Positions 10,701 through 48,574 of a stretch of 64,000 nt of DNA are shown here, piece by piece. The translations under genes and the position numbers were made by a program. The notes beneath the pieces were generated by a model that ran no database searches, was not told the origin of the DNA, and saw only the letters and a list, made by a program, of their open reading frames with translations. This DNA is from Pempheris klunzingeri. Its lineage: Eukaryota; Chordata; Actinopteri; Acropomatiformes; Pempheridae. Position 1 is the first letter of the stretch. Each line of letters starts with the position of its first letter. The stretch spans positions 5,492,006 to 5,556,005 of the forward strand of contig NC_092027.1 in NCBI RefSeq assembly GCF_042242105.1. Direction: 5' to 3'.

Positions 10701-12077
10701 AGCTGATGGAAGACGTTGAAGACGTAGTCGCGGTTCTTCCTCGCCGACGGCTTCATCAAAATCCACGACATCCACTTCTCCTCAAAATGATTCCACCTGC
10801 ATAGCAAGAGAGGAGATAATTGTAGCTTCATTCAAACAGTTATGCAATGTTACAAATTTAAAATGTTTTAGGATGTCTTTACATACTTGTCCCTCATGTA
10901 ATTATGTCCTATTTGTCCGGATATATCTTCTATGGCAACAAGCATGTGATCAAACACCTAAACAACAAGGACAGAGGTTCTGTATTAGTCGGACTGCAGC
11001 CTGGTAGTTTACAGATCTCGCTGTTGTTTCATTTTGAGCTTTACCTTGTTCTGCACTTTTTCTATGAGTGTGAGCTCGGACACTGCAGCTCTCTTTACTT
11101 TAAGCCAGGTGACCAGAGGTTTCATCGTTACTCCCTGCAGCACAAAGAGATTCAAGCCAAAGTTTGCACAATGAAGCTGTTCTGTGTTTTTTATGTAACT
11201 AATCTGTAAAAAACAAACAAATGCGTGTGTTATTTTAGCTGCAGAACAATAATTACCTGAAGAATGACAGTGAAGTACACCACGATGAGAGTAGTGCAGA
11301 CCATCAGATTCTTCTCCTTTATTTTGCTCTCATCCAGCATCGTAGCCAGGCCATATGCAACAGCCCCTCGCAGGCCACCGTAGCTCATAATCACCTGATC
11401 TATGAACTCGATGGGGACCAGCCGGAACTTGTTTAGGATCCAGGTGAGGAAAAAGACACCTGTTGTATACATGCACACAAACACAGTCAGATAGTGTACT
11501 GTGTGCACTCAAAACTGACTGTCAAAGACAAAATCTCACCGATTAATCTATACACGAAGATGAAGAGGAGCGTGAGGAGGATGAAGCCCGTGTTCCACAC
11601 CCAGATAGTCTTATCGATGGCGGAGATGCCGAGGAACACAAAGATGATGGTTTCTGATCCGTTGGCTAAAACCTTCATGACGTATCTGACTGTTGTGACG
11701 GACCTCTCGTCCATGTTCGCGTTGATGTACTTCTGGCAGCACATCCCACAGAAGACGATCCTACGGGACAAAAACACAGAATTAAACTGGCGTGCGCTAC
11801 TTTTTTTGCTTTCTTACAAAAAAATGTAAATGTATTAAAATGGACACAAAAGTAATAAAACAAATTAGATGTTTTTTTCATGAAATACTCACGAAAGGAT
11901 GGCAGACAGGGAGAGCATCTCAGCAGTCAGGTAGGAGAGGTATCCCAAGACGAAGACGAAGCCCGGCTCAATGATCTGGATGTTTTTAGTGCATCTGGTC
12001 ACAAGAGAGATCAACAGGCCAAACACAAAGCCCACAAGGGAACCACCAAACGCCACCACAAAGAAGGAAACTGGAGG

Positions 12078-12136
<59 letters not shown>

Positions 12137-15100
12137 GCATAAAAGGTTATTTTCATGTTATCCAGCATAACTTGGATTATATGCTCTTTGATGAACACCA
12201 AAATGGCCCTTTGGAAACATGTCTGCGCACATGCAGCACCTCTGAAGGACCGCAGGCTGTTACACCACACGTCCACTTACATTCTTCTCCATTAATGGGT
12301 AAATAAATGTCACTCCGTACTTATTCCTTTAATGATCTCCACAGCATCAATTTTGGATCCTCCCAGTGACACAAAGGCATCAAACACATTGAAGAGCACC
12401 TAAGAGAAGAAGACGAGAGTGAAAGGTTAAGGAATGGATATGATGGATATATATCTTGACACGCTAGAATCGCTGGACTACATCTGTGCATTTCTCCTTA
12501 TTTTTCTAATGATTGCTTATCTGCATCTCCTTAACTGTCTCTGAATTGTCACCAGGTTTCTTCCATCTTGTCCCTTTTTGTTTACAAACCTCAGAAAAAT
12601 TATATAATTTCTTGGTCATTTTCATGCTTTATTTGATAGGACAGAGTAGAGGATGGGGGTAAGAGAGAGAGAGCGGGGGTGACATAAAGCAAAGGGCCAC
12701 AGTCTGGACTCAAACCCGGGTCACTGCAGTTCAGACTCAGCCTAAATGGTACACACTCTAACTCTAACTACCTCAAAAGTGTGTATTTCACTCCAAGTAG
12801 TTAAATAATTGGCCCAATCCAATGATGACAAGTGACGTGTCATCACATCTGAGGAATATTTGGGGGTCAAAACATGAGAGACTAGGAACAAAACAGCAGT
12901 GTGCAGATATTTTTCAGTATTTTGGTGCAGATTATTGTTATCCAGCACCTGTGAAAAATATATGAATATAATATATGGATGTGGGTGCAAGTTCTAATGG
13001 TCACCACATTAAAATGCCCTAAATTGGAGCAGCTAAGTTTCGACATGAAAACCGTGCAGTGCTTTATTCAATAGGTGAGCAGACAGGTCAGAGAGGCCGT
13101 TTGACAGGTGTGGAAAGTTGAAAGTAACACCTTGTTATTCCGTTTCACTCCTCATTGTAATTTCAGCAGTGAATAGAGAGGTATTTCATGATTCATAACA
13201 CATACAAGCAATTCTGATTCTCATTAGATCAACCACCTCAAAGAGCACTTTGATAGAGCGGTGAGGGATTAAGTTCAGGCGCCTCACTCAGGGTAAAGGA
13301 AAGTTTTGAAGTGCAGAATGTTTGCGTTCTTTTCACTAAACGTCCAAATGTACTTTCTATTGATGGATGTCTCAGCACACTCACACACTGTTCTGCTTCT
13401 TCGGTTAAGGTTAAGTAGAGCAGTTGAATAGCAACGTAGCATACGAACCACTGTGACGCCGTCGTTCAGCAGCGACTCTCCAAACACCATGATGAAGAGG
13501 ACCTCGTTGACGTGGACTTGCTCAAACACAGCGATGACGGCCACAGGGTCCACGGCAGCAATCAGACTGCCGAAGAGAAGATACTGCAGCAGACCGATGT
13601 CCAGGTCACCTACGGCACACGGGGCGGCAGATACACTAAATTTACACTTTATACACTTTATTTAATGTAGCTGAGCAGGAAGCCGAAAGGGCCCGTAACA
13701 GATCTTATAAATCTTATGCCAAGCCCGTCTGATTCATTGCTGGATCTCTGTTCACTTTATGCTTTTAGCCACCACTTTGATCCAGGCTGTAATATCTCAA
13801 CAACTATTGGATGGATTGCCATGAAATTTGGTGCAGATAATCATGGAAATAACTTGTACAACTCCACCTCAGATCTCCAATCTTCAATTCCTCATCAAAT
13901 ATTAGCATCCTAGTGAAGAAGGCCCCATTCCTTTTAGCCTATATCTGTTTACATTTTAGCACATTTGCACCATTAAAGAATGCTGAACTAGCCACTTGTG
14001 CTTCCTGTTGGCAATGACACCCATGGATGTACAGACAACTATCAACAGGATATTTTTATACCAAAGAAAACTTAAAAACATGATTATTGTCAGGCAAGTT
14101 TTGAGATAAAAAATAGATTCTATGATATTTCTATGATATGTAAGCAGATTTTATGGAGACACTGACATCCCCAGACAGTGTAAGGCACACTCAATCTAAA
14201 AATATGTGTATCATGTAATTGTGACTCAGAGACGACACAAATGGTGGGCTACATTTAGGGGCCAAACTAACCTCGTTGGTTGTTTTAGAGCACCAGCATG
14301 CACCTGTCCCTTCCACTTCACACAGTATCTTTGCCTCATGTGTCTCCCTCCCCTCACAGTTTGAAAACCTCTGATCTACACATACCGCATACAGCTTGGT
14401 AAAGTGAAATGAAGTGACAGTCTCTCTTACCCATGGCTCCTCCCTTGTGACACCCCCACAGCGACAGCCCCAAGCTGGCGGCGTTCCAGCAGGTCCCGAT
14501 GACGGCGTACACCAGGATGGCCCCCATGTTGCTGAAGAAGAGCTTGTTTGGCATGGAGTAGCCCGCGTCCAGGATGATTTGAGGCAACAGGTAGAAGAAG
14601 AATACTGTTGGCGTCAGCGTGAAGGTCTGAACTTTGTCTGCGCCCCAAATGATCCCACCCAGAATGAAGCCAAAGCAGATGAGCAGGGCGCTCTCTGGGA
14701 TCACACTAGTCACATGGTGATTGGCCTCAATGACTAAGAGAAGAGAGGAGAAGAGACATTTCTAAGTTAGACTCAGTAATAATAAGAATTTTTGTAGCAT
14801 TTTGGGGAGGACTCTGTATTTAGTTTTTGGTCCTGGGGCTGACAAAGTTTTAAACTCACCGCATCATTACTAAACCATAGAGCGGTTGCAAAATTTGCAA
14901 ATGATCAACTGTTGCACTCAACTAAGAAAGTGGCAACTTTTGTTCTGGGCATATAATTAACCAGCATGATGGTGCATTTGAAGGTCCACAAATCTCTCTG
15001 TGTAACTAAAGACAGACTTTTGCTTCAGGGCTGGGAAGCTGGGAATTAATGGCCCGATAAAGTGTCACTTAAACTTATTTAATAATCAAACCAAAATACT

Positions 15101-16376
15101 TTTGTGATGCTGACATGTTCCTATTAAAAATAGTTGAAGATTAAGTTGAGGAAACTATGGATGAAGGTCTGTTATAATTCAATGCTGTGTTTATGTTCAT
15201 GTATTCTCTAAGATGAAAAAATTAAACAATAAAGTGGCTGTAAAAAGTCTAAAACTCTTGACAATCTGTGGAATTTCTAATAAAGTACAAACATGCATAA
15301 AAACAGAAGACGCTCTTCTGTTCTCTGGAACAGCATGCCGTGTTACGTTACATGATAACACAGACTACTGTTGGCTGTCTGTTGTGCCGCTGCAGCATGT
15401 GACACTATTTGTTACAATATTGGAGGCCAATTTAAAAATGTCTCCCTTTGCCAAAACATACTTTCTCATCAGGTGGATGAAACGTTTTCTCCACTGGAAT
15501 ATAATAAAGCAGTGGTTCTCAACCTTTTGGGTGTCAAGGACCCCCACATTGATACCCAGACCCGTATTTGATTAGATGTAGTCTCAGGGATCCCTGTGTG
15601 GAGATTTATTCCATAATTGTCTGTGCTGTAGATTAGCAGATTAACATTGAAGAGTGTGACACCTATGATGATGAAAATGATCAAGAGTACTTCCGCAGTG
15701 TTGTTCCAACACTTGAATCCACCAGTCTTTCTCATTGTTAAAGGCCCTGAAAAACCTTCCCTCCTTGCATAAAACTGTAGACAGAATCATTCATAAGTAT
15801 GCTAACATGTGGAGGTGTTCTCCAGTTTGTGATAACAGCACAACATTGTAATCATTTTACATTTGAAGGGTTAAAAATAGCTCAAAATTATCTTCTTTGA
15901 AAGATGAACGTAGCATCCAAACTATGTATGACACAACTCTGACGGCTATGCTCTCACCCCTCATAACGTCTTTTCTCAGCTCATTAGATCAGTCGTCACA
16001 TGAGATGACAAACAGCTAATAATTGGTTCAATTTTAGTCCATATCATGCAGTCTGCAAAATAAAAAAAAACACCTTTCCAGCGCATTTTACATCCTAAAA
16101 TGTCTGTTACATACCCAATTTAGCCAAACCAGCCACCAGTATCCATAATGCAACTAGATAAGGGGTCTCCACATGATGCCACTTAAAGGTCACGACGGGT
16201 ATTCCTGTGATGCTGGAGCCGTGGCCAGGTTCAGTCAAGTTTGATTTCGACAGCTTCCGATGGGGTTCCTGATGTGCTAGCGCCACGTCCCCGTTCACCC
16301 TTTTGACCCCTGAGAGGAGGCAGATCAGTAACACTGACCCCAACAGCCAGAGGTGGACATACCCACAGCGCTGCAT
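7736..16376 (-). CDS. slc9a3: Sodium/hydrogen exchanger 3 (NHE3), complete
   Basis: NHE3 is the apical Na+/H+ exchanger of gut, kidney and gill epithelia. Sixteen coding exons keep phase, 5' to 3': 16376-16115, 14733-14431, 13609-13449, 12399-12321, 12070-11893, 11760-11540, 11459-11257, 11134-11045, 10957-10887, 10796-10667, 10564-10419, 9666-9543, 9152-8979, 8588-8534, 8441-8355 and 8031-7736. They encode 859 aa (human 834). In order they show a signal peptide, the [16 protein letters not shown] first helix, the [20 protein letters not shown] core, [25 protein letters not shown], the ISGQIGHNY juxtamembrane region, GERRGS, and a tail ending in eight prolines and DGHM. The tail match (DSFMLAD) separates it from NHE1, NHE2 and NHE5. 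Oddities are PQ for the usual PP in the fourth helix, a weak exon 3 donor (GTTCGT) and Gly in place of Thr at -2 of the terminal PDZ ligand. Confidence 0.95.
8205..8320. repeat. Dispersed fish repeat fragment in an slc9a3 intron
   Basis: Runs such as TACTTTTACTTTTGATACTT and TACTTTTACTCAAGTAAAGG belong to a low-complexity-looking dispersed element. Related pieces appear near 3940, 20890, 26220 and 26520 in this window. Its boundaries are approximate. Confidence 0.45.
9750..10015 (+). repeat. Dispersed repeat with GGATTAC-type core
   Basis: The sequence includes AAGATTACAGAAAAACTACT, GGGCCAAGGAAGAACCTATT and TTTTGGAGCGGATCCAGGTC. I recognise these as parts of a repeat that is very common in fish genomes. 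It lies in the slc9a3 intron between exons 11 and 12 and accounts for the open frames at 9619-9915. I cannot name the family. Confidence 0.55.
10202..10293. repeat. Near-palindromic hairpin in slc9a3 intron 11
   Basis: The arms pair as follows. Positions 10202-10220 (TTGATGAAAAAAGTTTCTA) match 10275-10293 perfectly over 19 bp. Positions 10235-10243 (TGCAGTAAA) match 10259-10267 over 9 bp, and CACTT at 10246-10250 pairs with AAGTG at 10253-10257. An asymmetric internal loop and a tiny apex interrupt the stem. The 92-bp size suits a short MITE or a pre-miRNA-like fold. No other copy was seen in the window. Confidence 0.8.
12080..12135. repeat. (GA)n microsatellite forming a splice-site pyrimidine tract
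   Basis: This is about 56 bp of GA on the plus strand. On the slc9a3 coding strand it reads (CT)n and runs directly into CCCCCTCCAG, the acceptor of coding exon 5, whose first base is 12070. Confidence 0.95.
12598..12735 (-). mobile_element. tRNA-derived SINE-like element
   Basis: On the minus strand the element contains a near-consensus RNA polymerase III B box, GGGTTTGAGTCC (12706-12717), within ACCCGGGTTTGAGTCCAG. After it come TGTGGCCCTTTGCTTTATGT and a CT-rich tail running to AATAAAGCATGAAAATG. This resembles a widespread fish SINE whose copies read GACCCGGGTTCGANTCC. No clear A box is preserved and there are no obvious target-site duplications. It lies in slc9a3 intron 3. Confidence 0.6.
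13740..13990 (+). repeat. Dispersed repeat in slc9a3 intron 2
   Basis: The segment with TAATATCTCAACAACTATTG, GGATGGATTGCCATGAAATT and AGCATCCTAGTGAAGAAGGC matches by memory a very frequent interspersed repeat in percomorph fish. It has no coding function. Its ends are approximate. Confidence 0.5.
15505..15600 (+). repeat. Dispersed repeat in slc9a3 intron 1
   Basis: AGTGGTTCTCAACCTTTTGG followed by TGTCAAGGACCCCCACATTG is a recognisable common vertebrate-type repeat end. A reverse-oriented remnant (AAAGGTTGGGAACCACTGAG) occurs near 42568. Extent is uncertain. Confidence 0.45.
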
Positions 16377-16743
16377 TTGATCAAATGATTTAGGAAAACA
16401 GAGTAAAAGAGAAGCCACACTAAAAAAAAAAAGTCCTCCGTCTTGTCCCTGTACAACCTCAGATGTCAAGGAGGTGATCTGTTTGTACCAAGGCCAGACT
16501 GAACTGCCGGACACCGTGTCACACTTCTGATCCCTCCTTTTTTTTTTGTGGGTTTGTGCTTCCTCTGTCGTACTCACTCTTGTTTACTACCACTATCTTT
16601 TTTCACTGCTCTATCTCCTCTTTCGCTCTTAGTGCTCCATCTCTCTATCTCAGCCTGTGACTTTGTATCCTCATTCCTCCCACAGCCTGTGGTCAGCAGA
16701 GGGGGACCGGAGACTTAGGAAGAGCGCAGAACCCCGGACTCAG

Positions 16744-16753
16744 CCTTTTATAT
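16744..16753 (-). promoter_or_regulatory. slc9a3: TATA box of the proximal slc9a3 promoter
   Basis: The minus strand reads ATATAAAAGG, about 370 bp upstream of the slc9a3 ATG at 16376. Transcription would start near 16715. It lies just before a (GT)n tract. This marks the promoter used with the proximal first exon. Confidence 0.65.
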
Positions 16754-16768
16754 GTACAGTCTCTCCTC

Positions 16769-16779
16769 TATGACTAAGG

Positions 16780-16818
<39 letters not shown>
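16769..16818. repeat. (GT)n microsatellite upstream of slc9a3
   Basis: This is an uninterrupted GT tract of about 50 bp, roughly 20 bp upstream of the slc9a3 TATA box on the minus strand. Confidence 0.95.
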
Positions 16819-16821
<3 letters not shown>

Positions 16822-16952
16822 TGGAGGATTAAAGGGGGAGTAAGTGATGTGCAAGAAAGGTCTCCCGGTTATTCAGTCACATTTGAAACATTCACTGGTT
16901 TGTTTGTGCTATCTGGTCTCTAACACATCCCCTCAAGTTTGTCATGACACAT

Positions 16953-16956
<4 letters not shown>

Positions 16957-16991
<35 letters not shown>
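16957..16991. repeat. (GT)n microsatellite
   Basis: This is a second GT tract of about 35 bp, with 140 bp of unique sequence between it and the first. Confidence 0.95.
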
Positions 16992-16992
<1 letters not shown>

Positions 16993-17838
16993 GAATGAAT
17001 ACCTGTGTGTGTTTAGGAACATTTCCACTGGCTCTGTCTCACAGCTCTGATCTTAGTAATGATTGACGCTGACGTTGCTCAATCCTAGTTAAAGACTTCC
17101 CATCTCTTGACGTGAGAGGAATGAGACATCCATAAATAAACTACCACTACCATATAACGCAGCTACGATTCAGTTAATAAGCTTATTCCTTTGCTCTGTC
17201 ATGAATTTTTTGACATTACCTTCCATATCAAAATGAAATATCCGTCATTTAATGAAAACGATACAGATTTTTAAAGGATAAGTCTGCTGATATTCTATCA
17301 TTTTTATAATTATGCTGTCAGCACATCCAATGGGGAGACAAAAAAGCAAAAGTGAAACCTGTGCGTGGTCACAACCTGATATATCTTATTATCATGTGCC
17401 ACAGAGCTCTGTTGTTGTCCAAAAACTATTAAGATAAGGTACACTAGATGTTAATTCAGCCCAAGGGAAATTGTTGTAAAAACAAAAATGGGCTCCACTG
17501 TTGAACTGGGTGTTTCTTCATTACAATGAACATGGACACTGTAGTTTATTTTGACTCGCTGAGCAGTAAATCCTCTCTAAAACACCAAATGTGTATTAAT
17601 CAGCAGCTGAAAATAGTTATACTATTACTACTATTAACTCTTATTCTTAAACTAAAGAACCCAACTGTTTAAGGAACTTATTGAGCTTTTTGAAAAACTA
17701 AACTGTGTCATTAAAGCTTCATGACCTCTGTAGGAACATCAGACAGAACAGGGAGGTCAGGGACACATTAAGGCCCTACGCTTTTTAAAAGGAGGCAAAC
17801 TCAGATCCATGCATGGCTGAAACAAACATCTCTCCAAA

Positions 17839-17952
<114 letters not shown>

Positions 17953-20094
17953 AGGCTTTGTTTACATAGCACAGTTACAAAGTGCTTATAGCAGAAAGCT
18001 AAATGAACTAAAAGCCATGAAAATAAACTCATTGTAAAACTCAAAGTTAAAAAATCAAAAGGAATAAACAGTAAATTAAAATCAAATTCAAGTAAATAAG
18101 CAGGTGGCTCAAGTAAAATCAAGAAATGTTTTCCAATAAAAGTACGTTTAAGAAGACAGTTTAGGGTTTTAAGTTTTTTAAGTCAGTATTTATTCCCATA
18201 AGCGTTGATTCACTGAACTTGTTGCGTTATGACTGGCTGTTTTTTTTGGCCAACAGTCCCGTCCTGTTTGAGTAGGACAAGGGACAATGGCCTCATTGGT
18301 GAGATGGACTGGTTCGATGATTTGATACATGAAGTCTCACACAGGCAGGTGTGAACCAGCGAGTCTCTGCTAACAGCTTTATAGAACTATAGAATATCTA
18401 AAGTTGCTTATATGGAAATAAATTGCATCACGTATTATTTAACACAGTAAACTAATACAGTAACACAATGAGTTAATATAATTTAGCATGATTGCCAATG
18501 CTGATCCAATGACACAGTTTAACGACTGACTGACTTTGGTCTATTGAAGAGTTAAAGCAGCTTTATATCTGACAGACATTTTATTTGTTTCTGAATGCCT
18601 CAAATCATCTTTATGAGAACATTTAGCTGCACAGCCTGCACAGTCAAGCGTGAACTCACCTGTTCGGCCTTATTAACTAATGACCTAATACATCTTGCTT
18701 AACAGTGGCTGGCCTTCAACTTAAACCTTTCAATCATTCTAAAATGGCCACAGCTCTATGCACACTCAGAGCTCAGCTGCACAGAGAGGTCAACTTCATG
18801 CTGGAAATGAGAGGTCATTTAAAGGTTGTTTCCAGGCTGTAGTTACAGTTCAGGATTGCTGTGTTACTGTTAATCAAGCTGCTGTGAAAAATCTATTTTT
18901 GCTCAATAAAATGTGTCATTTGTGACCTCACCCAGAAAAAGCTTCATTGTGACATAAAGTACATGTAGATACGTTTATATTTTATTGTACATTCATGTTT
19001 TCCACCTGATACTATTCATCATGAGATGTAAAATGGGGATTACATCATCACCAACATTACAAGGAGCAACCTGTTGGGAGTGAAAAGGTCAGAGAGAGAA
19101 ATACCTAAAAAGAACATAAACCTTTGAAATGTGGAATAATGAACATTTTATTTTATAAAATGCTTCCAGATGATGCTTCCAGACCACAGAAGTTATGTTC
19201 ATGCACTAACTGGCAGGTGAAAAGGAAGCTTTCCGGCTCATTACAGATTCGTAAACCTGCATTCATTGTCCATTGTCCCTGAATTAGCTTGGAGCAGAGG
19301 GGACTGACTGCAGCGAGGAGGACGGAAGAAAGCAAGCATTGTAAATCAGTAGAGGAAATAACATCTGAAGAAAATTTGTCTGTACTTTAGAAAACTACCC
19401 ATGAAAGTATAAAGTCAACATTTATAGTATCTGAGATGACTTCATGCAACCAATCTGCTCCAGTTCCCTTAAAAATAAGTTTGCCAAATCAGTGTCGGTC
19501 CCTAAATCTCACTGAAAAACATGGCACTCTCAACTAGAAGTGTGTGCGCACATTTAAAGTTGAGTAAACGCTAATAACGTCCCGCCGCAGAACAAATGTC
19601 GCAGAGCTGTCCGGACTGAACAAACACTCATGAGTCCATTTTCTCTGTTTCCACAATATGAAATAGCAGATTTAGCTGTAACATTTACGAGATGTCCTCT
19701 AATCCTTGAGCAAATGTTTGCCTTCTACACAGCTCTACACAGCTCTTTCTATTGTATTTGTTTCAAGCGTAAGATAAATATGGTGTCTTTTGCAATCATT
19801 CTAATTCAAGAAAACTTTGAATACTTGCAAATCAGATTTTAAGATGTTAACCTCTCTAACCTGCAGAGTTAGAAGACATCTTCTAAAACCCTTCATAGCA
19901 TATTTCTTTTTATCATTAATAACCTTTTGTTCGAGTGACTGTCAGCACAAACATGGCCGTAACATTTTCAGCCAAAGGCAGCACAGACCTCATCTTCTAC
20001 TGTAACTACTTGGAGCCTCGTTGTGTCTTATTTCATTGTTCTGCATCATATACAGACGACCACAGTCCTGTATTTATGTCTGCGGAAGTATACA

Positions 20095-20098
<4 letters not shown>

Positions 20099-20138
<40 letters not shown>
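20099..20138. repeat. (CA)n microsatellite
   Basis: This is an uninterrupted CA tract of about 40 bp. Confidence 0.95.
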
Positions 20139-20140
<2 letters not shown>

Positions 20141-20554
20141 TGCATGCTCATTCATTTACATTGTCCACACCGCCTCAACCCATTTGTGTCTGTTGTGTAC
20201 ACATGAGATGCTAATGACCGGGTTCTGTGATCACAAGAAGAGTACTTCATCCGGTGGGATATTTAATAGAGGTCAACCTCTCTTAAGGCCCCCAGTTGTG
20301 TCTGATTCATGATCTCTGCAGTGTGTTTTGTGCAGGTCCAATCAAAGCAGGTCTCAGAAAACGTGTAAAGGGATATTGGGGGCGAGTGGGGCTGGGCGAT
20401 AAAACAATACATACAATAAAATTAGAAAATTAAAATAAAATATATTTTTCTATAAATACAGACTGAGGCAATGACCCCTTAAATATTTTCTTTGTCATTA
20501 CTGGACATGCAGGACTTTTGAATAATTATTATTTCATGTATTTAATGCACTGAT

Positions 20555-20845
20555 TTAATGATCAATCAGTGGTTTCTTGACTAAACTTCCATAAAGATCA
20601 TTTTATCACCATATCTATGACTATGAATTCATCGCCAACTGTTTTGACAATCAATTAAGTTTGAGTAATTTTTCTAAGGGAAGGAAGAAAAAAGAAAGCT
20701 TGGGAATGGGAATATTTTTCTGGTTTCTTTACCCCTCTGTGACAGTAAACTGGATATCTTTGGGTTGTGGACAAAACAACACATTTGAGGACATTTTGTA
20801 GACTGAACAACTAACTGATTAAGTACAGTGCAACTAGAACATCTG
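20555..20845 (+). mobile_element. hAT-like MITE copy
   Basis: It contains the family core TTTCTGGTTTCTTTACCCCT, CTGTGACAGTAAACTGGATA and TCTTTGGGTTGTGGACAAAA, which is shared closely with the copies at 57.8 kb and 24.4 kb. The ends are eroded. Confidence 0.7.
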
Positions 20846-21041
20846 TGAGGTACTATATTATACTATACTATACTAAATAAGTACTATATATAAGTATTTC
20901 TATTATTTATGTTACTTCATACTTGTACTCCTGATATGAGTGGGATATATAAAACATTAGAAACACCTCTCAGGTTTCAAATAACTGTTTTAGGGTTGTG
21001 TTAGATGTGGCTGTCCATGGATAGGACTTAATAGGACTCAC

Positions 21042-21369
21042 TGATTTTGCAGAGCCAGCAGACCAGGATCCAGAGGGTCACCAGGTACGGGGTGGAGACA
21101 TGATGCCACTTCCAGCTCACAATGGGCAGAGTGGTGATAGGTCCTCCTCCGTGACCACTGCTTTCATGTCCGGAGTCTCCGCTCGAGTCTTCCCCGTGCC
21201 CGGTGCCCGAGTCTTCCCCGTGCCCGGTGCCCGAGTCTGAGCTTGAGTTGGTCCCGTGATCGCTGCTCGCCGTATCTTCGTGTCCTGTGTCTTCACTGGC
21301 CAGACTCGGGCCTCTGGACACCATCAGCAGCATGCAGAGAAAAAGTGCAAGTCGCCCAGTAGAAGACAT
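21042..21369 (-). CDS. slc9a3: Orphan NHE3-type first coding exon (alternative exon 1 or remnant paralogue)
   Basis: This exon encodes 109 aa plus one base. It starts with a signal peptide (ATG at 21369, hydrophobic LALFLCMLLMV). Next comes an acidic Ser/Gly/His linker with GTGHGEDS repeats, then the conserved first membrane segment WKWHHVSTPYLVTLWILV, and it ends at A/GTGAGT. The proximal slc9a3 exon 1 has the matching [18 protein letters not shown] and the same phase 1 donor, so either exon could splice to exon 2 (acceptor at 14735-14734). No stop or frameshift disturbs it. No further NHE exons lie between the two. Either it is a distal alternative promoter and exon 1 giving an NHE3 with a different N-terminus, or it is what remains of a tandem slc9a3 copy. 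The intact frame and donor favour use. Confidence 0.8.
21185..21232 (-). repeat. 24-bp tandem duplication inside the orphan exon
   Basis: Two perfect 24-bp units (21185-21208 and 21209-21232) encode the repeated octapeptide GTGHGEDS. The exact identity suggests a recent expansion of an extracellular linker. Confidence 0.95.
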
Positions 21370-23514
21370 GTTTGGGAAAACTGCTCCACAAGCTCTTGGC
21401 TGACAGTTTTTTAATTTTTTAGGCTGAGTCAAGTGCTCAGGTCAACATCAGACTGTGTGTCTGTGTGAGTCTCTCATTCCTTTCCTCTCAGGTCTCTGTC
21501 ACTTTGTTCTTCCTTACACCCACATCTTTATCTGGCCTGAGCCTTGTGGCCCTCTTTGTACTCTGCTCTCTACAGCTTTTTAGAGCAGGTGAAGCTCAGC
21601 CCATCCTGATGCTGGTCTCTCTCCTCCCACTTTGAACCCAGACCAGCTAGTTTGGCCACTTTACTCAATGGAAGACTTGATGCTCTCCTACTTACTTTAT
21701 TGGCTGTGAATGCTGGGATGGGCAACTCTGACGACAGAGAGGGCCACAAAAGTTGTACCCTCGTTACCAGAGGGTCAGACTGTGACCATGCACTTCCACC
21801 AGTGGGATACTCACAATTAATCTATAACAGCTGCTAGTTTGGTGAGAAGAACACAATATATACCTGTGATTGAAGTTTTTCATACCAATATTTCTACTTT
21901 TTATATTTTCGAGCAAAAATGCCCAACATTCACCAGTTTAAACTTTTCTTTGTCTTATCTTTTTAGCTTTTTATGTGGCTGGTTTTAAGTTGTTACCTGG
22001 TCAAAACAGGCAATTTCAAGACAGTAGCACCTTAAGCTTTAGGAATTTGTGATGTCTGTGAGGTCTGAAAACATAACCATTAGGGTTATCTAAAAACTTG
22101 TGCTTGGATATTAATATTTTTAACGGCAAGTCCATGTTACAAACTGGAAGCCAGGGGTTTGAAAGACATATACATATATACATACATATACATATATATA
22201 CCTCTGCTGCATTGATTTTGAACACCTTTTAGTGACGTGCAGCTCAACACATCTTTGTAATGCAGCCCAGATAGCAATCCAGTGGGCCAAGGGGTCAAAG
22301 GGGTCAATTCTTATTTCTGACTTGTTCTTGATATTTCACTTTTTCTTTGAGAGATACTTGATTTTTTTCTAACATCTTCACACCTCTGACATTTGAAACA
22401 GCACAAACATCACTCTTTGGCTGAATATTTCCTCAATTCATCGATTAGTTGTTTGGCCTATACAATTCAGAAGAATTGGAGACATGCCAATCAGTTTTTC
22501 AGGAATATTCACCTGCATTTTCACTTTTGAGTAAGTAGTCTAGAACTGCTCAGCCTGGACCTAATGTAAAAGATCCAGCTAGTGAGAGAAATACAATTTT
22601 CAATACCTTATTTTTTGTCATTTTAACCAGGAGATTCTGGAAAAGGAAACATTAGATTGTATCTTCAAGGCACCTTCCTGGCTGAATGAATAATAAAAAA
22701 TAAATAAGACGGACTGACAGTTCTTCTTTAATTAACAGACCCTTCTACACTGTACTGTGTCGAGTTTCACATAAATGAATGCAAATAAGTATCCAATGAT
22801 ATGAGAACATGAAAGCGGTTTGACCCGTTTGTCTCCCTCATTGGAAAAGCACCCCTAACATCCCCTCCTCTTGCCACACTCCACAACAGTGACTGTGTTG
22901 AGCCTTCATTGCCACTATGCGTGTGTTTAGGTGACAGAAACTCGTAAATGAACCTTAGTTTGGACATGCCGTTTTTTTTCCACGAGTCGTTAATCAAGGT
23001 TTGCTTCCCTGTTGGGCACGATATCCGTGGTTAACATTTAAACAGCCATATCAGCTCCTATTCTCATTGGAGGGAAACCTGGGATACTCTATTCATTCTT
23101 ACTCTGCGTACGTCAGAGCATTTGGGATGTTGAGGGTCTTTCCAGAAACCCAGAAAGTGTTCAATAAATATTTTCTTAATATCTTGTTTCTGCATTATTG
23201 TCTAAGTGGCCAAAAGAGCTGTTTAATAACAAATAAAGTGAATTTTTGTATGACCAACCTTCCTATCTGGATCTTAATCTACAGCTTTTTATATCCTCAT
23301 AAGTGCAGTAGATTACCAGAAAATAACACCAAAAGTTCAGGATTCCTTGTCCTGTATTTGAAACATCTTATCATGTCCTCCTGTTTGACAACTGTTTGTG
23401 TTTTTCACCAATGGGGACAAATTAAGTTAAATAGCAGAATCAAAGAGTGGAGAAACATATGACATGCACATGTTTCCTCCTGAATGGTTCGGGGACTATG
23501 AAAATGAATGAAAT

Positions 23515-23620
23515 GCTACAGTACGGCCTTTACAGTCACCAGATCTCAACCCGGCTGAGCACCTTGGACTCTTCTGGACACATCAAACCTCACTGAAACC
23601 TGCACGGTCAGTTTCTCTTC
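23515..23620 (+). mobile_element. Tc1/mariner-derived fragment
   Basis: GGCCTTTACAGTCACCAGAT followed by CTCAACCCGGCTGAGCACCT translates in one frame to QSPDLNPAEH. This is the SPDLNP block near the catalytic end of Tc1/mariner DDE transposases. No other transposase blocks are joined to it, so it is a short decayed piece. Confidence 0.55.
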
Positions 23621-24235
23621 TGGGACACCAGCATGGACCTCAGCAGAGCTGTTTGCACGGCAGCTCTGTGGACAGTTTATGAGTAAACTGGCTGCAATGA
23701 TCGCTACCCAAGCTTAAGATAGATCTGACACCAGTATCTAAGGTCAGTGGTGATCAGAGGGTCTCTGTGAGGGCAGCAGGAAACAAAGAAGCGCCCGTGG
23801 CTGTGACTTGACCTGTAAGGTCAGACATCAACAGAAAACCTGTTGGAAGGAACCAGATCAGACCGGCACCAGGCCGCCATGGTGGTTTTGGTGTAAATAA
23901 AAGAACAAACTCAATGTTACACCATCAGAGTTACATTGAGTTGAGTTCCAAAGGCAATAAATCAACATCAATTTGTTATTCATAGTGCATTTATAACTAA
24001 AAATAATCAACACATCTGATAATCGATTGTTCATTTAAATCATTTATTGAGCAATAAGGCTGAGAGGCTAAAGCTAAGACAGCAGCTCCTCGAGGCTAAT
24101 GCTTGGAGCTAAATGCTATGCAATGTTAAACAATTAACTGAGTAAATAGAAAAATAACAAAGTTGGACATAATTAAAATAACCACAGTGCTGTTTAGCTC
24201 TACTGTCCGCTCAGTGAATGCATGTAATAGAGCCC

Positions 24236-24480
24236 AAACAACTGCTCGATTCATTTGATGATCTACAGAAAATTAATTGCAACTATTATGGTAATCGATC
24301 GATTGTTTCAGTCATTTCACAAGCAAACATGTGAAACATTCCCTGGTTCCAGCTTCAGAAATGTGAGGAGTGACTGCTTTTATTCATCATACATGATAGT
24401 AAATTGAATATCTTTTGGTTTTGGACTGTTTGATACAATTAGAAGACTTCACTGTGGATATTTCTCATTCATTTCCTTTT
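24236..24480 (+). mobile_element. hAT-like MITE copy
   Basis: It shows arms with CAACTGCTCGATTCATTTGA and ATGGTAATCGATCGATTG, and the core CCAGCTTCAGAAATGTGAGG and TAAATTGAATATCTTTTGGT, matching the family found elsewhere in the window. It is diverged and approximately bounded. Confidence 0.6.
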
Positions 24481-26819
24481 CTATTTTGCACTTTCGCGAC
24501 TGCTGCAGCGTCTTGATAACAGCGCAGGAGGGTCACACCTGCAGCTCAGTGGTTGTATGTTCACACGGACAACAGAGCACATGGTAGAAACACACAGTGC
24601 TGCACAAAGCTCCAGATCAAACACAAACATGAAAACCGACGGGAAGGTTTACAGTAATGCTGAGTCACGACGAGGAAGAAACATCAGCGAGAGTCAGACA
24701 CAAAGGAAACTGGAATCTTCCCCATTCTTGTGATGGTGATACCAGTTGTCAGTGTTTATATTTGGATTAGTCCCAGACAATATGTTTATCTGTTTCTTTT
24801 TCATATGCTGTTTCACTAATACAAAAATATAACTAAAAAACGTAAAGAACAAAAAAAGAAAGACGACAGTTGAGGAACAAGAAGGTCTTAAAAAAGTCTG
24901 AATTTTGGCACAACAAATACAGCTGTATTTTTCCCACCACTGAATGTAGCTGTTTAGGGAAAAGTCACTGCATGTTAATCTGCCTCACGGCCTGTTTATG
25001 GTGTCACATTGCAGAGGAAAGGATGTTTAATAAGAACAGTGAAACCTGCATGGACGTCAGTCGGATGAAGGACGAGTCGAGGTTTACACTTCAAGTGAGT
25101 AGCACAGAATTGTTGAACCAGCATAAAATCACTGAGGTGACCTTTGATATGTGCACCAATCTGATATTACAGAACTCATAAAACCCCTATAGTGTATTCT
25201 AACAAGTGATTGTCCACAATATAAATGTAATAACCCAGAATACGTTTCTACATGGTGTCATATCAACACTTTGATGCCGCATCATACATAGAAAATGACC
25301 ACGATGACATTCATACTGCACGCTCACAGCGTCACCACCACACCCAATTAATCATTTAACACCTGTCAGACTCTGCAGGAAACATGAAACACCAGAGAGA
25401 CATTTCTTTATTCAGAAAAGCAGAATTAGCCAATAAAATGAATCACTCACCTCAGGAATCTCAGCTGCTCATTGATGTTGATGTCAGTTCATTCAGGGTG
25501 TTTTTCTGTTTTAATATTGTTGTTTGCTGTGAGGAAAATCTCAGCCTGCACTTGTGATGCTGTTCAAAAAGACAAGAGAGCGATTAGAGGAGATTGTAAA
25601 AAGTATTTCCCTTAACACTGGGCTGCTCGTCAAATTGATACACATGAGCTGTGCTGTTGAATGTAGAAATGTGTCCTAGAACATTTTAGAATCAAAACAC
25701 ACAACAGGTTGTTTGGAGGACACTTTGCATTGCTGGAGCATTTATTCAACTTACTGTAAGACACATCTTCCACCTATTAATCATTAGAATTATTGACTGT
25801 TTCCCTTTTCTATGAATTATTTAACAGATGTCAGAGAATCACAATTATAATCAGGGGCATGGCCCAATGTGACTATCAATTAAAGTCAAAGATATCCACA
25901 TACTTTTTGTTCAAAAGTTGTTACTATATAATACCATTAGCTGTTTAACAAAGTAAAAAAAAGCCTGTGTGGTTGTAAGAGTCCAAATCCAGGCACTGCA
26001 GAGCAAAACTTCACCCAGAGTGCTGCAACTTATCTGACGGCCACTAGAGACTCCTATAAGCTCATCACACACATTAAAAGAGAGAATAAGACTGGTCAGC
26101 AGCAGTGGATGCAGTAAACTGGACAAAGTCTCTTCTAGTCGTTGCTGTTAGTCTGATGTTGTCTGAAACCTAATGTTTATTTGACACGTCACAGTGGGAA
26201 CAACAGATATAAATACTCAGACGTTCGTAAAAGTACAAAAGTATTTCCATCAAAATATACTTAATATAAATAATACTAAAGTGAAAGTGTTCACTGAGCA
26301 AATTCTTCTTCTTATTATTACTATTATTCTTATTATTATTCAATAATGTATACATCGCTTTGATGTTGAAGCTGGTAATCAATAAAGTTTTGTCATAATC
26401 TATAACTTTACATTGTCATTTATTTGTTAATTTTATTTTGCATTAAGAAGCAGAATCTGCAAATAAAGAGTACTACACTATATTAGGCTCTGGATGGTAG
26501 TACCAGTAGTAGTAGAAGAAAATGAAAATACACAAGTAAAGTACAAGTACCTCAAATTTGTACTTGAGTAAATGTACTTAGTACTTTCCTCCACTGCTAA
26601 CAGCTAACATTACCTTTTGTATGTATGTAAGACTGAATAAACGGTAAATTAATGCACTTAAATGTCTTTATAATCAATAAACCTTCAGTCAAACTCATCC
26701 CAGGTGATCAGATTAAACAGTCACACCAACTTCCACCGTGTTTATGATTCATATCCCAACCTGATCTCTAATAGCTCGCCGCTTCCTCTGCGCAGGTGTT
26801 AGCCTACCTGTTGATTCAC

Positions 26820-26934
26820 CATGCTAACAGGCTCACCGGTGCGCGCGCGGCGCCTCGCGCTCTGCTCACATGACGTTACCCAGCATTCTGCGGGACAGAA
26901 ACCGACAGAACATCAAGGAAGAGGATGAGGCTCG
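26820..26934 (+). promoter_or_regulatory. lipe: lipe core promoter and first exon
   Basis: This is a short CpG-dense block (GTGCGCGCGCGGCGCCTCGC) containing ACATGACGTTACC, which has a CRE-like TGACGT. It ends at a strong donor CTCG/GTGAGT (26934/26935). The next plus-strand acceptor with coding potential is at 29305-29306, giving lipe a first intron of about 2.4 kb. The exon contains an ATG at 26925 that is in frame with lipe (see findings). The exact transcription start is unknown. Confidence 0.6.
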
Positions 26935-29314
26935 GTGAGTGCAGGCGCCCAAAACACCCAACAAAACTCACATTTACACGCTCGTTCCCGCCGTGTTTGG
27001 CGCATTTGTGGCGTTTAGGGGATGTTAGCGGCGATTATGACACGCTGTCACAGTGTTTGGGCGGTTTTTCGTGGCTCTGAAGCCGAAAGCAACAGGAGGA
27101 TCGGTTGTTCGAGCCCGTCAAAGGTGTTATGGGTGAAGTTGTCACCCGTAGCAGATGGTGCTCTGCTCTATAACAGTGGGGGCGGATATATGAGCCTTTT
27201 AAAGCCTGAAGTTTGTGTGAAGAAACGACTGAAAATGGCGGGGATGTTTTTTTTAGCAGTGAGAGAAGCTGATGTCAGACATGAGTGTTGTGACAGAGGC
27301 TGTTTAAGGCACAACCCAGGCTTTTATTTTGGTGATTTTATTTTGGAGATTCAGCAGGCAGGACTGTAGCTACCACGAAGACACTCAGGTCAGGGCATCT
27401 GTCATTTTTCTGAATTTAGGGCTGCAATTACCAATACTTGAGGAATAATAATTTAATGGTATCATATATCGTACTGTAACAGTCACAGGGGACAGTTTTC
27501 TGCTTTGAGTGCTTTTATTTTTAATGCTCTAAGTACATTTTCCTGATTATGAATATAAATGGAATAACAGATTGTTGGTTTATTTGTTGGCAATAAGACA
27601 AATACAGAATAACACCAGACCTATCCTTATAAAATCTGATCAAGATATTTCTCAGCAGCTGATAGTTGTCTTTAAACATAACATGAACATTTTTGATAAA
27701 GTTCCCTGAAGTTTAATTGAAGCATTGTCTGACCTCAGAGCGTCGTCTCATAACGGAGACACTATTTCTAAATCAACACAAATATATCTTTAGCATTTTT
27801 GTTCTAGTTCTCACATTGCGCCCCATAATGTTAAGGAATTCTACATTGAAATATAATTAAAATCACAATGAAGAGGGGAAACACAATAATTTAAGAGAAT
27901 TAAATGAAACACAATGCAACAAAGCAAAGAGAAAACACAGTCAAAGATAAGAAGGCCAACTGTTTGACCACTTTTATCTCTGCTGTCATAGTTACAAAGC
28001 TATATGACAAATTATAATCACTATAATCCCGTCTGATGGGACAGGCGTTTATCTGTGATTAGACTTTGGGCAACTATTGACAACTCTCAACTTATGTCCT
28101 CTGTGTTGTTTGTTTCGGACGAACTGAGGAGAGTTTTACCTGTTACAATTACACACAGGCTGACTTTGATTTTCTTTACAGTCAATATTTTCTATTGTGA
28201 CTGTTTTTAAATGCTGAGCAGAAAATAGAAAAACACCTATAAGTGTGTGTCTAAACTGTGATAAAGCCTCCAGTGTTTATGAACATTGTCGTGACTAGAA
28301 CAGTGTCCTGATTTTACTTTGAGCTCCAGGCTGTGTGCGCTGACTGCTGCTGTTGGCAGAGAAGACATTTTCACGTTTTATCACATTTACAGCCGTTCTG
28401 CACAACGTGTGTCGTGCCTACATTAACATTAACATGATGGCTTTGTTGTAGTTTGGTAACATGTATGACTAATGTCAGTGAACTCTACATGTTATTTCCT
28501 GCTTACTCGTTATGTATGGTCATTTTCTCCCCATAGACTTCTATTAAAGAAGTGGACTTAGCCACCGTGACGTCATATTCAGGTGTATCATTTTATTTAT
28601 TAATTCATTCATTCATTCATTTTATTTTTGTTTTATTCTTTTATTTCTAGGGAGTCTACTGTAACATTTGATTACCCGTTTGGCTAATTCTGGCACATCT
28701 ACAACAGTGTTGATTAATAAACACTTTCCCTATTAAATGAATGGATTAATACAAAAATAATTGTTAGATGCAGCTTGGTGTAGCTTTTTAATTTAAACCA
28801 AAAAAAAGGTGTACATGAGGTGTTTTTCATTTTCAGAGTTTGTCACTTCTCTAGACAGGGAGTAGACTCTTGATGTACAAGCGTGTCTTGTCTCATTTTG
28901 GCGAATTTTTATTTCTTTTTTATTGACACTAAAGAGAAATTGCTTGAACAGAGACTAGAGTTTGTGCATCATGTGGCCTGTTGTTGTTTGTTGTAATTAA
29001 AATCATCTCCAGTGCTTGACGGCCTACTTTTAAAGTGCAATCCTCAGGCTGCACTGTGACTTCAACCCTTGACCAAACTGATAACAAGAGTGTAATCATC
29101 AGTGAGTTTCATTGCAGTAGATGAGGTCATTAAGATCTGTGTGTGTTTACCCTCAGGGTGATGGTCCCTTTTATTCGAGATGTAGCTACAGTTCACATCA
29201 CATGTCTGCTGTGTCGACAGCTACAGACGAGGCAGATAAAAAGGAGGTCTAAGAAATCCCTGACTCAGAGTTTTAACTCCTGCTCTTGTCTCTCCGTCTC
29301 TCACAGCCTCAGAC

Positions 29315-32300
29315 ATGGATTACAAGGTTGTGTTTGCAGCCTTGGAGACCGTATGTGAGGACAACATTTCTGTTATGTGTGGGCCTTCTGATTTGCCGTA
29401 TGGCGCTGTTGCCAAGCGCCTGGTCACATGTATGAAACGGATTCAGGAGCACGGCCGAGCCCTGGAGCCTGTGGTCGCCAGCTTCACCACCGTCTTCCAC
29501 CATTATGACTTTGACGCACAAACACCAGGGAATGGCTACCGCACACTGGTCAAGGTATGACTGATGCCTCTGACATTATGAGGTATTACCTTTTGTGAGA
29601 CAAAACAAACAAGTGTGTTTACTGTTTGGTTTTGGCTTGCAGTTGGTTAACAGCAGGGTTTTAAATGCACCATTTTAGATAATTACTAAAACATTAGGGC
29701 AGCAACTTACAATTACAATTACAATTGTGTTACAATTACAATTCATTATTTATTCTTTTGATTGCTATATTAGAAGATTTGAGCTATAAAATGTCAGAAA
29801 ATCGTGTAACCTGTACATTACAATTATAGCTAAACAATGAATTGCAATATTACTGTATGGCCAAGTACAATACCCACATCGCAGAGCTGTGATTTTTCAA
29901 ATCAAGGTCAAATGTGTCACAACATGCAGTTATAAAAGAAGCGCTGTAGTGCTACAGAAATGCCACAGCCTACAAATCATACATGTTTGTTTGGTATCCC
30001 ATCAAAAAAAATCACATCATCATCATCTTTATATTTTTCTCTCAGTGAAAATGAAATGCAAAAGTTACCGTTCCCTCTAAAATCATGTATTGTATCACAC
30101 TTACAATATCTGTCACAGTAATCGCAATATGTGATTTGTCCAAGAGTCAAAGTCCAAAACTATTTATTTATTTTAAAAGAAGACTGAAAAAATGCAGCAA
30201 ATATTCACACTATTGATTTATATATGCTGCACATTTATCAAAAGATAAGACTGGTGTTATTCTGTTTTTTTGTTATTGACAAAAATGATCACATAAAAGA
30301 TCAAAACAATGTGTTGATTTGTCTGTCCCCTCTCCCGTCAATGTGGCTCTTTCATTCTCTTTTTGATAGTTTCTGGACAACAATGGAGCTCTATGGCGGA
30401 GAAATGAGAAACGCTACATCAAGCTTTGACCACACAGACTTGCTATCATTGTTGGTTTTTGTAGGATTTGTTCACAATAACAAAAATGTGGTATATCACC
30501 ACGCTTATCGTTCAAATGACTCCTTTGTTTTTTATCTTTCTTTCAGGTCTTGCTTTCCTGCCTTTTGCACATCATTCACAAAGGCCGTTACATCGCCTCT
30601 AATTACAATGGTGCCTTCTTCCGGGCGGACCACAATGCCTCTGAGATGGAAGCGTACTGCAGCGCTCTGTGTCAGCTGAGGGCCCTGCTCCACCTCGCCC
30701 AGCAGCTGATCAACGACAACGACTACGGCCAGCTGTACTCCTTGCAGGACGGGGACCTGACCAACAAGTTTGTGCAGGAGTACAGCTCCATGCACAAAGC
30801 CTGTTTCTATGGCCGCTGTCTGGGCTTCCAGGTCAGTCAAAACCGACTGACTTCACATAATTCGCTTTTTATTTTCACACAATTTTTCAGTATGTTGTAA
30901 TTCCTTTTCTCACCAAAATGTGATTCAAATAACTTGTTGATTGTTCTGATCGCATGTAGTCAAACATCAGATATTTTAAAACTTGGGCCCTGCTTTAACA
31001 TAGGTGGGTTTGAATTGATAGGTACAAAAACTTTTGGAATTAGTCCAGTAGATTGTCTCAGCCAGCAGCTACAACCAGACTATGGACTATATACAGTATA
31101 TTGACTATAGACAATGACTGCAATAGATACTTTGGGGCAACTCATCCTTACAGAAGAAGTCCCATGAAAGTGATTTCAGTGAAGTGTCTAACAGCATTAT
31201 GTCTACAGAGATAGACCTGCAAGATCCTTTTTGTTAAACTAGCAACAGCAGTTAAAGTGCTGGCTTCAAAGCACCAGACTCCATTGACAAAAATAGTAAT
31301 TTTACCTCACAGAACATGGTAGTTGCTAGTCTAGTTGCTGTGGCTTTGGTGTTTTAACACCAAGGTAACTTATTTACTGTCCATTGTTTCTCTTTACAGT
31401 TCTCACCAACTCTACGTCCATTCCTTCAGACTGTTGTCATAAGCATGGTTTCATATGGAGAGACGTACGGTAAACAGCAGTCTGGCTTAGGTTAGTTTTT
31501 CATTTGTCTTCATATTGATGGAAGTCCTGCTTTGGCCTTTTCAGATGTGTTCATTGTTAAAATCACAACGTCCTCTTTCAGGTACGGCAGCCCTTTCCCT
31601 GCTCACATCAGGGAAGTACGTCATTGATCCAGAGTTGCGGGGCGCTGAGTTTGAACGTATTACCCAGAACCTGGACATGCAGTTCTGGAAGTCCTTCTGG
31701 AACCTCACAGAGTCCGGCCTGATAACAGTAGGCAGGGTCAAATGTTCTTCCACTCAGTCTGAAATTAGGTCCTATTTAATGTTTTATCTGCCTAATCCTC
31801 TACATGTCTTCCTCTGTCTTCCTCTGCAGGGCTTCAACAGAATAGCTTCTAGCCCAGTGCAGATGAACTTCACCCTGACTTTGCCTCCTGTCACTTTACG
31901 CCTCCAACTGGCCTCTGACCCCAATCTAACGACGACCGTGTCACCTCCAATAGCACACTGGGGCCCCGGGCCAGTCCACATGCGCCTCATCTCCTATGAG
32001 CTACGAGACGGACAGGTGAGGCTCCACAGGTCTAATACAGGGATGAGATGATTATCTGAAGAGAATGGCATGTTTTATTTCTCTGTGTCCTTCATTATTA
32101 ATGACCTTATGACCTCCTTTATAGGACAGTGAAGAGCTGCTAGCCTTTTCTCGAACCGATCCTCCCCCCATCACTGCGTCCCATCTCCCCTGGGTACAGA
32201 AGCAACCTCGCTCCCCCTGGCTGCTCATCCACTTCCACGGAGGGGGCTTCGTAGCCCAGACTTCCAGATCCCATGAGGTACAATACAGAATGCATAATTC

Positions 32301-34073
32301 CAAAAGTCATATGTTCATTACTTCTACTTAAGCTCTCAATCCCATTGTAATAAATAACTAAAATTTAGCACCAGATCTTCCAGTCTTACCAGATGTTTCA
32401 CAGTAATTAAATGCAATAAAAACAAGCAGCTGTTAGTGGTTTACAATTCATCACACACATTTTCTCTGTTCACCCCCTCATCAATCAGAATTATCTTCGA
32501 GGTTGGTCGAAGGAGTTGAGCGTACCTATTCTCTCCGTGGACTACTCTCTGTCACCTGAAGCGCCCTTCCCCAGAGCTCTGGAGGAATGTTTCTATGCCT
32601 ACTGCTGGGCTCTGAACAACTGTCACCTGCTGGGTATGTGTATGACGTCACTACACAGGACTATAGTTAACAAACAGGGAGAATCTGAATTATCTTTATT
32701 TTAACAGATTAAATTGTAATTCTCTCAATATTTGGGGAAAGAAAGTCAGAGTCAGAGAGGACCAGTAACTACATTTACATGCACATTAATATTCCCCTAT
32801 TATTCTGAACATAATATTATTCTGAATTTGATGTGTCATGTAAAAAGCATGTGAGATATGTTATTATTATTTGGGTTTTAAAAGCATCCTTCAGACATGT
32901 GTACAGCACATTCAGAATATGTGTCTCTATTAGGGGTTTTACCACAGTTTGCAGCACATGCTCTCTACGGTCAGCTCTGTGCATTGTAAACAAACCAACT
33001 AGCCAACAGTTTGTATGATCATGTTTGTGGGACTGTGTGACTTCAGTTTGTGTACTTCTCTAAATAGTCACTTACAGTTGCTGCATACGATGCTGCTTAC
33101 GGACAATACTGCCCAAACATGAGATAAAAATTAGTTTTGTTAATATGGAAATCAGTATTTCCAAGTATTAATGTGTGAATTCACTGCAACAAACATGTTC
33201 TTTTGCAAAAATGCAAATGTGCTTTATGTGCCAATGTATTCACACAATACAGATGGCTGTTTATACAGAACGCCATAGAGAATCTGCACACATTAACAAA
33301 TGCCCCATATTCCCTTTGCAGATGTAGATAGCACACACTGTTCCCTTTCCACTGTCCCTTTAAGGATATATTTAGTATGTACTAAATCTGGCATGTTAAC
33401 TTGTTATCTTTACATTATCAGAACATTGGAACGTGGAAAGTGCCACATGAGCCCACTCACATGCAGAAAAGTAAAGAAATGTGGTTCAATAAATAGGGTA
33501 TACTATAGGATTAAAGGTTAAATAGTATTATGGCTGCACCCAGTGGTATTTTTTATTGTATATTTAACTAACTAACTATTTATTATATTTTCAGATATTG
33601 TTTTGTCTATAAAATGTATGAAAAATCTCCATCAGAAATCAGAAGTGACATCTGTTAATGACCAATGTTTTGTCCAATATCATCTTGTCGTTTCAGCACG
33701 TAATTGTCGTGTAAAATGTCTCAGATAAAAACATCAAACGAACAGCCTGTTCTAAAATCCTCGCTCTTCATTAACATCAGTGAAATGTTTGTTAGTACTT
33801 CTGTCTTTGTGTCTCAGGCTCCACAGCAGAGCGGGTTTGTCTGGCAGGTGACAGCGCCGGAGGAAACCTCTGCATCACTGTGTCCATGAAGGCCATGTCC
33901 AGCGGCATCCGAGTCCCCGACGGCATCATGGCTGCCTACCCCGCCACCCTGCTCACCACTGACGCCTCGCCCTCCCGCCTGCTCACGCTCATCGACCCAT
34001 TGTTGCCTCTAGGTGTTCTCGCCAAATGCCTCAATGCTTATGCAGGTATGTAGGGGTGTGTGTGTGTGTGTGT

Positions 34074-34127
<54 letters not shown>

Positions 34128-37283: not shown

Positions 37284-40006
<2,723 letters not shown>

Positions 40007-43767: not shown

Positions 43768-48574
<4,807 letters not shown>

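Follow-up and report, generated by a model that had tools for sequence, protein, structure and literature searches.

In fish, NHE3 is one of the main Na+/H+ exchangers in the kidney, the gut and the ionocytes of the gill, and it is an unsettled question how one gene serves the apical membrane in gill, the apical membrane in gut and sometimes basolateral membranes. In the window analysed here, a stretch of 64,000 nucleotides from Pempheris klunzingeri, a second exon-like open frame lies upstream of the coding first exon of slc9a3, and the locus raises the question of whether it is used. We consider it likely that this distal exon serves slc9a3 as a working alternative first exon with its own promoter, a prediction made from the sequence.

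Anatomy of the slc9a3 locus

The features on which the argument is built, together with the neighbouring genes, are as follows.

21042..21369, minus strand: predicted distal (alternative) coding first exon of slc9a3 (open frame, homology to the proximal exon, coding score)
21036..21041, minus strand: donor GTGAGT of the distal exon (sequence and splice-site matrix)
21298..21369, minus strand: signal-peptide-like stretch, residues 1-24 (Kyte-Doolittle 11-residue mean 3.1)
21130..21297, minus strand: acidic His/Gly/Ser linker, residues 25-80 (composition, translation)
21184..21238, minus strand: in-frame 24-bp tandem repeat within the linker, 2.3 perfect copies (Tandem Repeats Finder)
21043..21129, minus strand: first-helix block LPIVSWKWHHVSTPYLVTLWILVCWLCKI, residues 81-109 (19/29 residues shared with the proximal exon; alignment at the beginning of the human NHE1 and NHE3 chains)
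21370..21669, minus strand: putative core promoter and 5' leader of the distal exon (TATA-like sequence: just a poor CTAAAAA at 21583)
16746..16752, minus strand: TATAAAA element 376 nt 5' of the proximal ATG (motif scan)
16115..16376, minus strand: proximal coding first exon of slc9a3, 262 nt, phase 1, donor GTATGT (human NHE3 match, E 5.4e-07)
14431..14733, minus strand: slc9a3 exon 2, with the acceptor that either first exon would use (Pfam Na_H_Exchanger, E 3.7e-15)
13449-13609, 12321-12399, 11893-12070, 11540-11760, 11257-11459, 11045-11134, 10887-10957, minus strand: slc9a3 exons 3-9 (GT-AG borders, open joined frame)
10667-10796, 10419-10564, 9543-9666, 8979-9152, 8534-8588, 8355-8441, 7736-8031, minus strand: slc9a3 exons 10-16 (GT-AG borders, open joined frame)
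4998-5962, plus strand: thioesterase, OLAH-like (Pfam)
30520-36120, plus strand: hormone-sensitive lipase (Pfam)
38369-38851, plus strand: trypsin (Pfam)
44364-44696, plus strand: DEAD-box helicase (Pfam)
61571-62170, minus strand: apolipoprotein A1/A4/E domain (Pfam)

The gene body encodes an NHE3-type exchanger. Beyond the first exon lie 15 more between 14733 and 7736, which show GT-AG borders and join into a single open frame. Residues 82-602 of a 636-residue model that starts with the distal exon and runs to exon 11 (exons 1d-11) matched human NHE3 (7x2u) with an E-value of 1.1e-237, versus 5.8e-136 for NHE1. The proximal first exon has no acceptor of its own and, searched against solved structures, displays a clear preference for NHE3. 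Over the 13 kb that separate slc9a3 from the lipase gene, the distal exon was found and no other gene was recognised.

The distal exon comprises 328 nt on the minus strand (window 21369-21042), i.e., 109 codons plus one nucleotide without a stop. Translation, the ATG at 21369 and the donor GTGAGT directly 3' of 21042 bear out the coordinates, strand, length and frame given in the earlier note, as does the distance from 21042 to 16376 (4.67 kb) its spacing of 4.7 kb. A start codon, a signal-peptide-like hydrophobic stretch, an acidic His/Gly/Ser linker and the first helix of an NHE protein follow each other in this order. Both first exons end in phase 1 and reach the same border of exon 2 (14733-14431, with an acceptor ending in cttag), across which the distal frame continues as KI-I-IEANHHV. 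The spliced model has 881 codons and no stop with the distal exon, and 859 codons with the proximal one.

The donor had been called a good phase 1 donor that fits exon 2. Its phase and the in-frame join are as claimed; its strength is moderate, with a score of 5.35 that exceeds three of the other 11 donors scored by a simple matrix of splice-site frequencies. The intron side (GTGAGT) is perfect and the exon side (TCA) weak, and 5.6% of the 3827 GT 9-mers on the minus strand reach the same score. Beyond this donor the open reading frame (21028-21441) continues for just five codons to a stop, so that an unspliced reading is possible: with its own ATG and signal-peptide-like start, the exon could begin a short separate secreted or membrane peptide, or another transcription unit, that is not spliced to exon 2. 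We regard this as highly improbable, as the homology to the NHE first helix stops precisely where the known exon does, and the phase is that required by exon 2. No use is known for a first helix that is truncated and stands by itself.

Predicted products of the two first exons and the climbing perch numbering

The hydrophobic start of the distal product, described earlier as a signal peptide, is indeed present (11-residue mean 3.1) and is better termed signal-peptide-like, since the assignment comes from hydropathy and the -3/-1 rule. By the same rule, cleavage may be guessed to occur after SLA (A24). The acidic repeat linker is as had been described: among its 56 residues (26-81 as counted), 12 are acidic, six are His and none is Lys or Arg, and the perfect 24-bp tandem repeat within it preserves the reading frame. 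One N-S-S sequon was read from the translation of the linker.

A search within the window aligned the distal with the proximal exon at 24 identical residues of 38 (E 6e-13), which substantiates the parallel drawn earlier between the two helix blocks. The alignment spans about ten linker residues (GHGGGPITTLPIV in the distal exon) and runs through the first helix; upstream of it, the two first exons have nothing recognisable in common except a hydrophobic start in each. The lumenal N-termini, which the earlier note took to be entirely different, are therefore nearly so, with the exception of those ten or so linker residues.

The designation ‘NHE3-type’ for the distal helix is sustained by the locus and by the likeness to the proximal exon, and less so by the sequence of the exon by itself. 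Searched alone against solved structures, the distal exon gave E 0.0044 for human NHE1 and E 0.01 for human NHE3. Its helix is identical to that of human NHE3 at 14 of 28 positions, to that of NHE1 at 12 and to that of the proximal exon at 19, and it contains a tryptophan and two cysteines (CWLCKI) that are not shared at all positions by the proximal exon, human NHE3 and NHE1. At cut-off, Pfam recognised no family in either first exon.

We have compared both models with the gill Nhe3 of the climbing perch (Anabas testudineus), whose cDNA (KU555941) was completed by 5' RACE and encodes 876 aa; according to the parts of PMC5701670 covered here, the protein occupies the apical membrane of one type of ionocyte and the basolateral membrane of a second type. 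In the same parts, a single N-terminus is reported and an alternative first exon is not mentioned. The 5' RACE primer matches our exon 2 at 14560-14583 with two mismatches. Nine numbered perch positions, namely eight conserved residues and an antibody epitope at 736, were placed in both models. The perch numbers are lower than those of the distal-exon model by three at seven of the nine positions, by four at the epitope and by two at S344, an anchor placed by residue identity that deviates by one from the rest (in the window model, Ala occupies the position six residues beyond E338). Relative to the proximal-exon model, the perch numbers are higher by 18-20, mostly by 19.

In residue numbering and in total length (876 aa, against 881 for the distal and 859 for the proximal model), the published perch protein thus resembles the distal-exon model to within a few residues. 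The earliest numbered position, F151, falls in exon 2, and so the length offset arises in exon 1 or in the first part of exon 2. Given the offsets to both models, the perch gill protein would have a first exon of about 106 codons, which is near the 109 of the distal exon and away from the 87 of the proximal one; this is a fit of length, not of sequence. Alternatively, a perch proximal exon about 19 codons longer than the one seen here could result in the same numbering.

Coding constraint and the possibility of a lost tandem copy

The reading frame of the distal exon has a codon-usage score of +0.26 per codon, and that of the proximal exon +0.02, with the score trained on slc9a3 exons 2-11 and the background taken from the same intergenic region. 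Among 3000 intergenic draws of 327 nt, each scored in the best of six frames, the maximum was -0.07, below the distal exon. GC3 of the distal exon (0.67) compares with 0.68 for exons 2-11, while its flanks have 37-41% GC. Within the 29-codon helix block, 19 residues are identical in the two first exons and nine of these 19 use different codons; dS amounted to 1.78 (14.5 of 21.3 sites) and dN to 0.35, giving a ratio of 0.20, a rough estimate that comes from about 21 synonymous sites and averages over both branches. Synonymous sites are thus near saturation, and the amino acids are largely kept.

We simulated neutral decay of the exon with 4000 copies per step, assuming 0.1 indels per substitution, 80% of them frame-shifting, and counting as intact those copies that kept the ATG, the donor GT and an open unshifted frame. 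At 0.02 substitutions per site, 43.7% of the copies were intact; this share fell to 3.8% at 0.08 and to 0.1% at 0.2. With substitutions alone, and no indels, 6.9% were intact at 0.2 substitutions per site. The dN/dS ratio of 0.20 over both branches, the coding score and the simulation all point to coding constraint on the distal exon. A long-dead relic is unlikely, because synonymous sites are near-saturated with amino acids kept, the coding bias is strong and simulated decay is fast. A recently dead relic is still compatible with the sequence, given the 6.9% of copies that stayed intact at 0.2 under substitution alone.

Such a relic would be the recently orphaned and unused first exon of a tandem slc9a3 paralogue that lost exons 2 onward by deletion. 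Zebrafish has two such genes, named slc9a3.1/slc9a3.2 or Nhe3a/Nhe3b, slc9a3.2 being the name of a duplicate gene. They lie in tandem, which makes tandem copies plausible. In zebrafish, more than one slc9a3 product is likewise made, but from separate genes and not from alternative first exons of one gene. A young relic would, moreover, still look intact, as did nearly half of the simulated copies at the smallest of these distances. We searched by tblastn with the proximal exon and with exons 2-11, 13 and 16 over 16377-29300 and found no convincing remnants of these later exons. Between the two first exons, a weak exon-3-like stretch (about 19344-19108, minus strand) has 31.6% identity over 79 residues with one stop, but its E-value of 0.70, for a region of 12.9 kb, is at chance level. 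Three core-exon matches in the real region had an E-value of 1 or less, against none in a reversed control. The stretch, the most suggestive of the matches, may be a chance likeness or what is left of a vanished tandem copy.

Over the whole window, tblastn with slc9a3 pieces gave second copies only at chance level besides the two first exons. Two matches antisense to the hormone-sensitive lipase gene (E 0.018 at 33923-33801, and another at 34174) and low-complexity matches (an exon 4 repeat, 0.028; 0.034 at 61675) were set aside as chance. A scan of a prokaryote genome collection for relatives returned 82 pattern matches, none of which was confirmed.

With an intact frame, a coding bias and a length that fits the perch gill cDNA all arguing for use, we judge the unused relic to be quite unlikely. 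The earlier note had left a choice between an isoform and a paralogue remnant. The isoform is favoured here, and the remnant found no convincing support in the search for exons 2-11, 13 and 16, though it is possible as an origin: the distal exon may derive from a lost tandem paralogue and have been captured by the surviving gene as an alternative first exon that is in use. Since this scenario concerns origin, it shares its anatomy with the alternative-first-exon reading and is compatible with it, and it would explain why the two exons have diverged almost to saturation and why they lie 4.7 kb apart. Against it, the searched exons yielded no convincing remnant of a lost gene body, and plain duplication of promoter and exon 1 is equally good as an origin, so that we hold capture to be rather unlikely. 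The helix comparison does not decide here: an attempt to date the split of the two exons by a four-sequence comparison with human NHE3 and NHE1 was set aside, because identities between proximal and distal and between proximal and human NHE3 helices are equal (19/28 each), with four derived states on each side, and this tie cannot place the split before or after that of fish and tetrapods.

An alternative first exon of slc9a3 is favoured overall by the intact start, frame and donor, the join to exon 2, the signs of constraint, the coding bias and the perch gill cDNA numbering. The moderate donor, the divergent residues of the helix and the poor promoter-like sequence upstream weigh against it. 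The argument made earlier, that conservation of frame, signal peptide and donor speaks for use, carries over for frame and donor, with the in-frame join, the kept amino acids and the gene-like coding bias added to it.

Predicted isoforms, promoter region and known systems

For the alternative first exon, we propose that a second promoter upstream of 21369 would drive transcription and that the distal exon would be spliced through its phase-1 donor to exon 2 at 14733, the proximal first exon being skipped. Both mRNAs would encode the same exchanger core and regulatory tail, and the two forms would be distinguished by their signal peptides, by their exofacial N-terminal tails and by the outer portion of helix 1. 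After cleavage, some 56 residues of the distal form would make up its exofacial tail, which is strongly acidic, contains much His, Gly and Ser and has neither Lys nor Arg; a variant first helix follows. Tissue-specific use is likely, with the distal form in gill ionocytes and the proximal one in kidney and intestine, or the reverse. The promoter, the tissue split and an effect of the tail on transport are what we infer from this anatomy, and that the acidic tail attracts Na+ or buffers H+ at the outer mouth of the exchanger is speculation.

A good TATA box was sought upstream of the distal exon and not found; only CTAAAAA elements occur there, the farthest 214 nt before the ATG. Ten motif consensuses were scanned, with unremarkable counts and no convincing tissue signal. 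The two leaders have a 40-nt likeness (distal side at 21524) that was as high in 2 of 200 mononucleotide shuffles of 1 kb each and in 0 of 200 for the near regions. Among real window segments, 8 of 628 scored as high, and two of these eight belong to the proximal leader; in the reverse direction the count was 12 of 839. A shared promoter is not claimed on this likeness, since several unrelated segments of the window are equally similar. The proximal leader region includes a forkhead-type consensus TGTTTACW at 16581 (plus strand), to which we give no weight, because about 0.35 such sites are expected per 1.5 kb.

In the banded houndshark (Triakis scyllium), one NHE3 gene reportedly gives rise to two N-termini, which the work of Li et al. 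in 2013 is said to have attributed to alternative promoters, with a gill form and a kidney/intestine form. On that account, the houndshark gene would resemble the slc9a3 described here in drawing two N-termini from one gene, and this kind of arrangement is thus probably already known from shark. The houndshark forms are NHE3 isoforms of an elasmobranch, whereas the two-exon arrangement here is known from genome sequence alone. By analogy with them, and with the perch cDNA coming from gill, the distal form is probably the gill or ionocyte form. A further conjecture, which we rate as unlikely, is that having two first exons goes back to early vertebrates, with sharks retaining the arrangement and tetrapods having lost it. 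The water-facing tail of the gill form would then concentrate Na+ and act as a buffer or relay for H+ at the exchanger mouth, aiding NHE3 in low-Na+ water, and the 24-bp repeats would let salinity tune the length of the tail between species.

A comparable design is that of other epithelial transporters with alternative promoters, such as NBCe1 (SLC4A4). The N-termini of NBCe1 are cytoplasmic, whereas the part that differs here consists of a signal peptide, an exofacial tail and a helix. As predicted for slc9a3 in this window, NBCe1 (KNBC1) is reported to have a shared transporter core and N-termini that differ by promoter (Abuladze et al. 2000).

Among the matches listed in the open-licence literature, we found no paper on an alternative first exon of teleost slc9a3. 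The parts of PMC11148202 covered here present NHE3 splice variants as uncharacterised in vertebrates, in conflict with what is reported of the houndshark. Database isoforms may already include the distal exon, among them the isoforms X1-X3 of Lates calcarifer that appear in a table in the covered parts of PMC5701670.

If two forms exist, expression studies with primers in shared exons would have averaged them, and the different signal peptides and exofacial tails would offer a handle for isoform-specific probes, antibodies and knock-outs. Should the distal exon be general in percomorphs, the annotation of the slc9a3 N-terminus from single cDNAs would be incomplete. In stickleback, slc9a3.2 is called a splicing variant and is expressed in kidney and not in posterior intestine, according to the parts of PMC12181344 covered here. 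This discrepancy in naming suggests that published work may confuse copies of the gene with isoforms.
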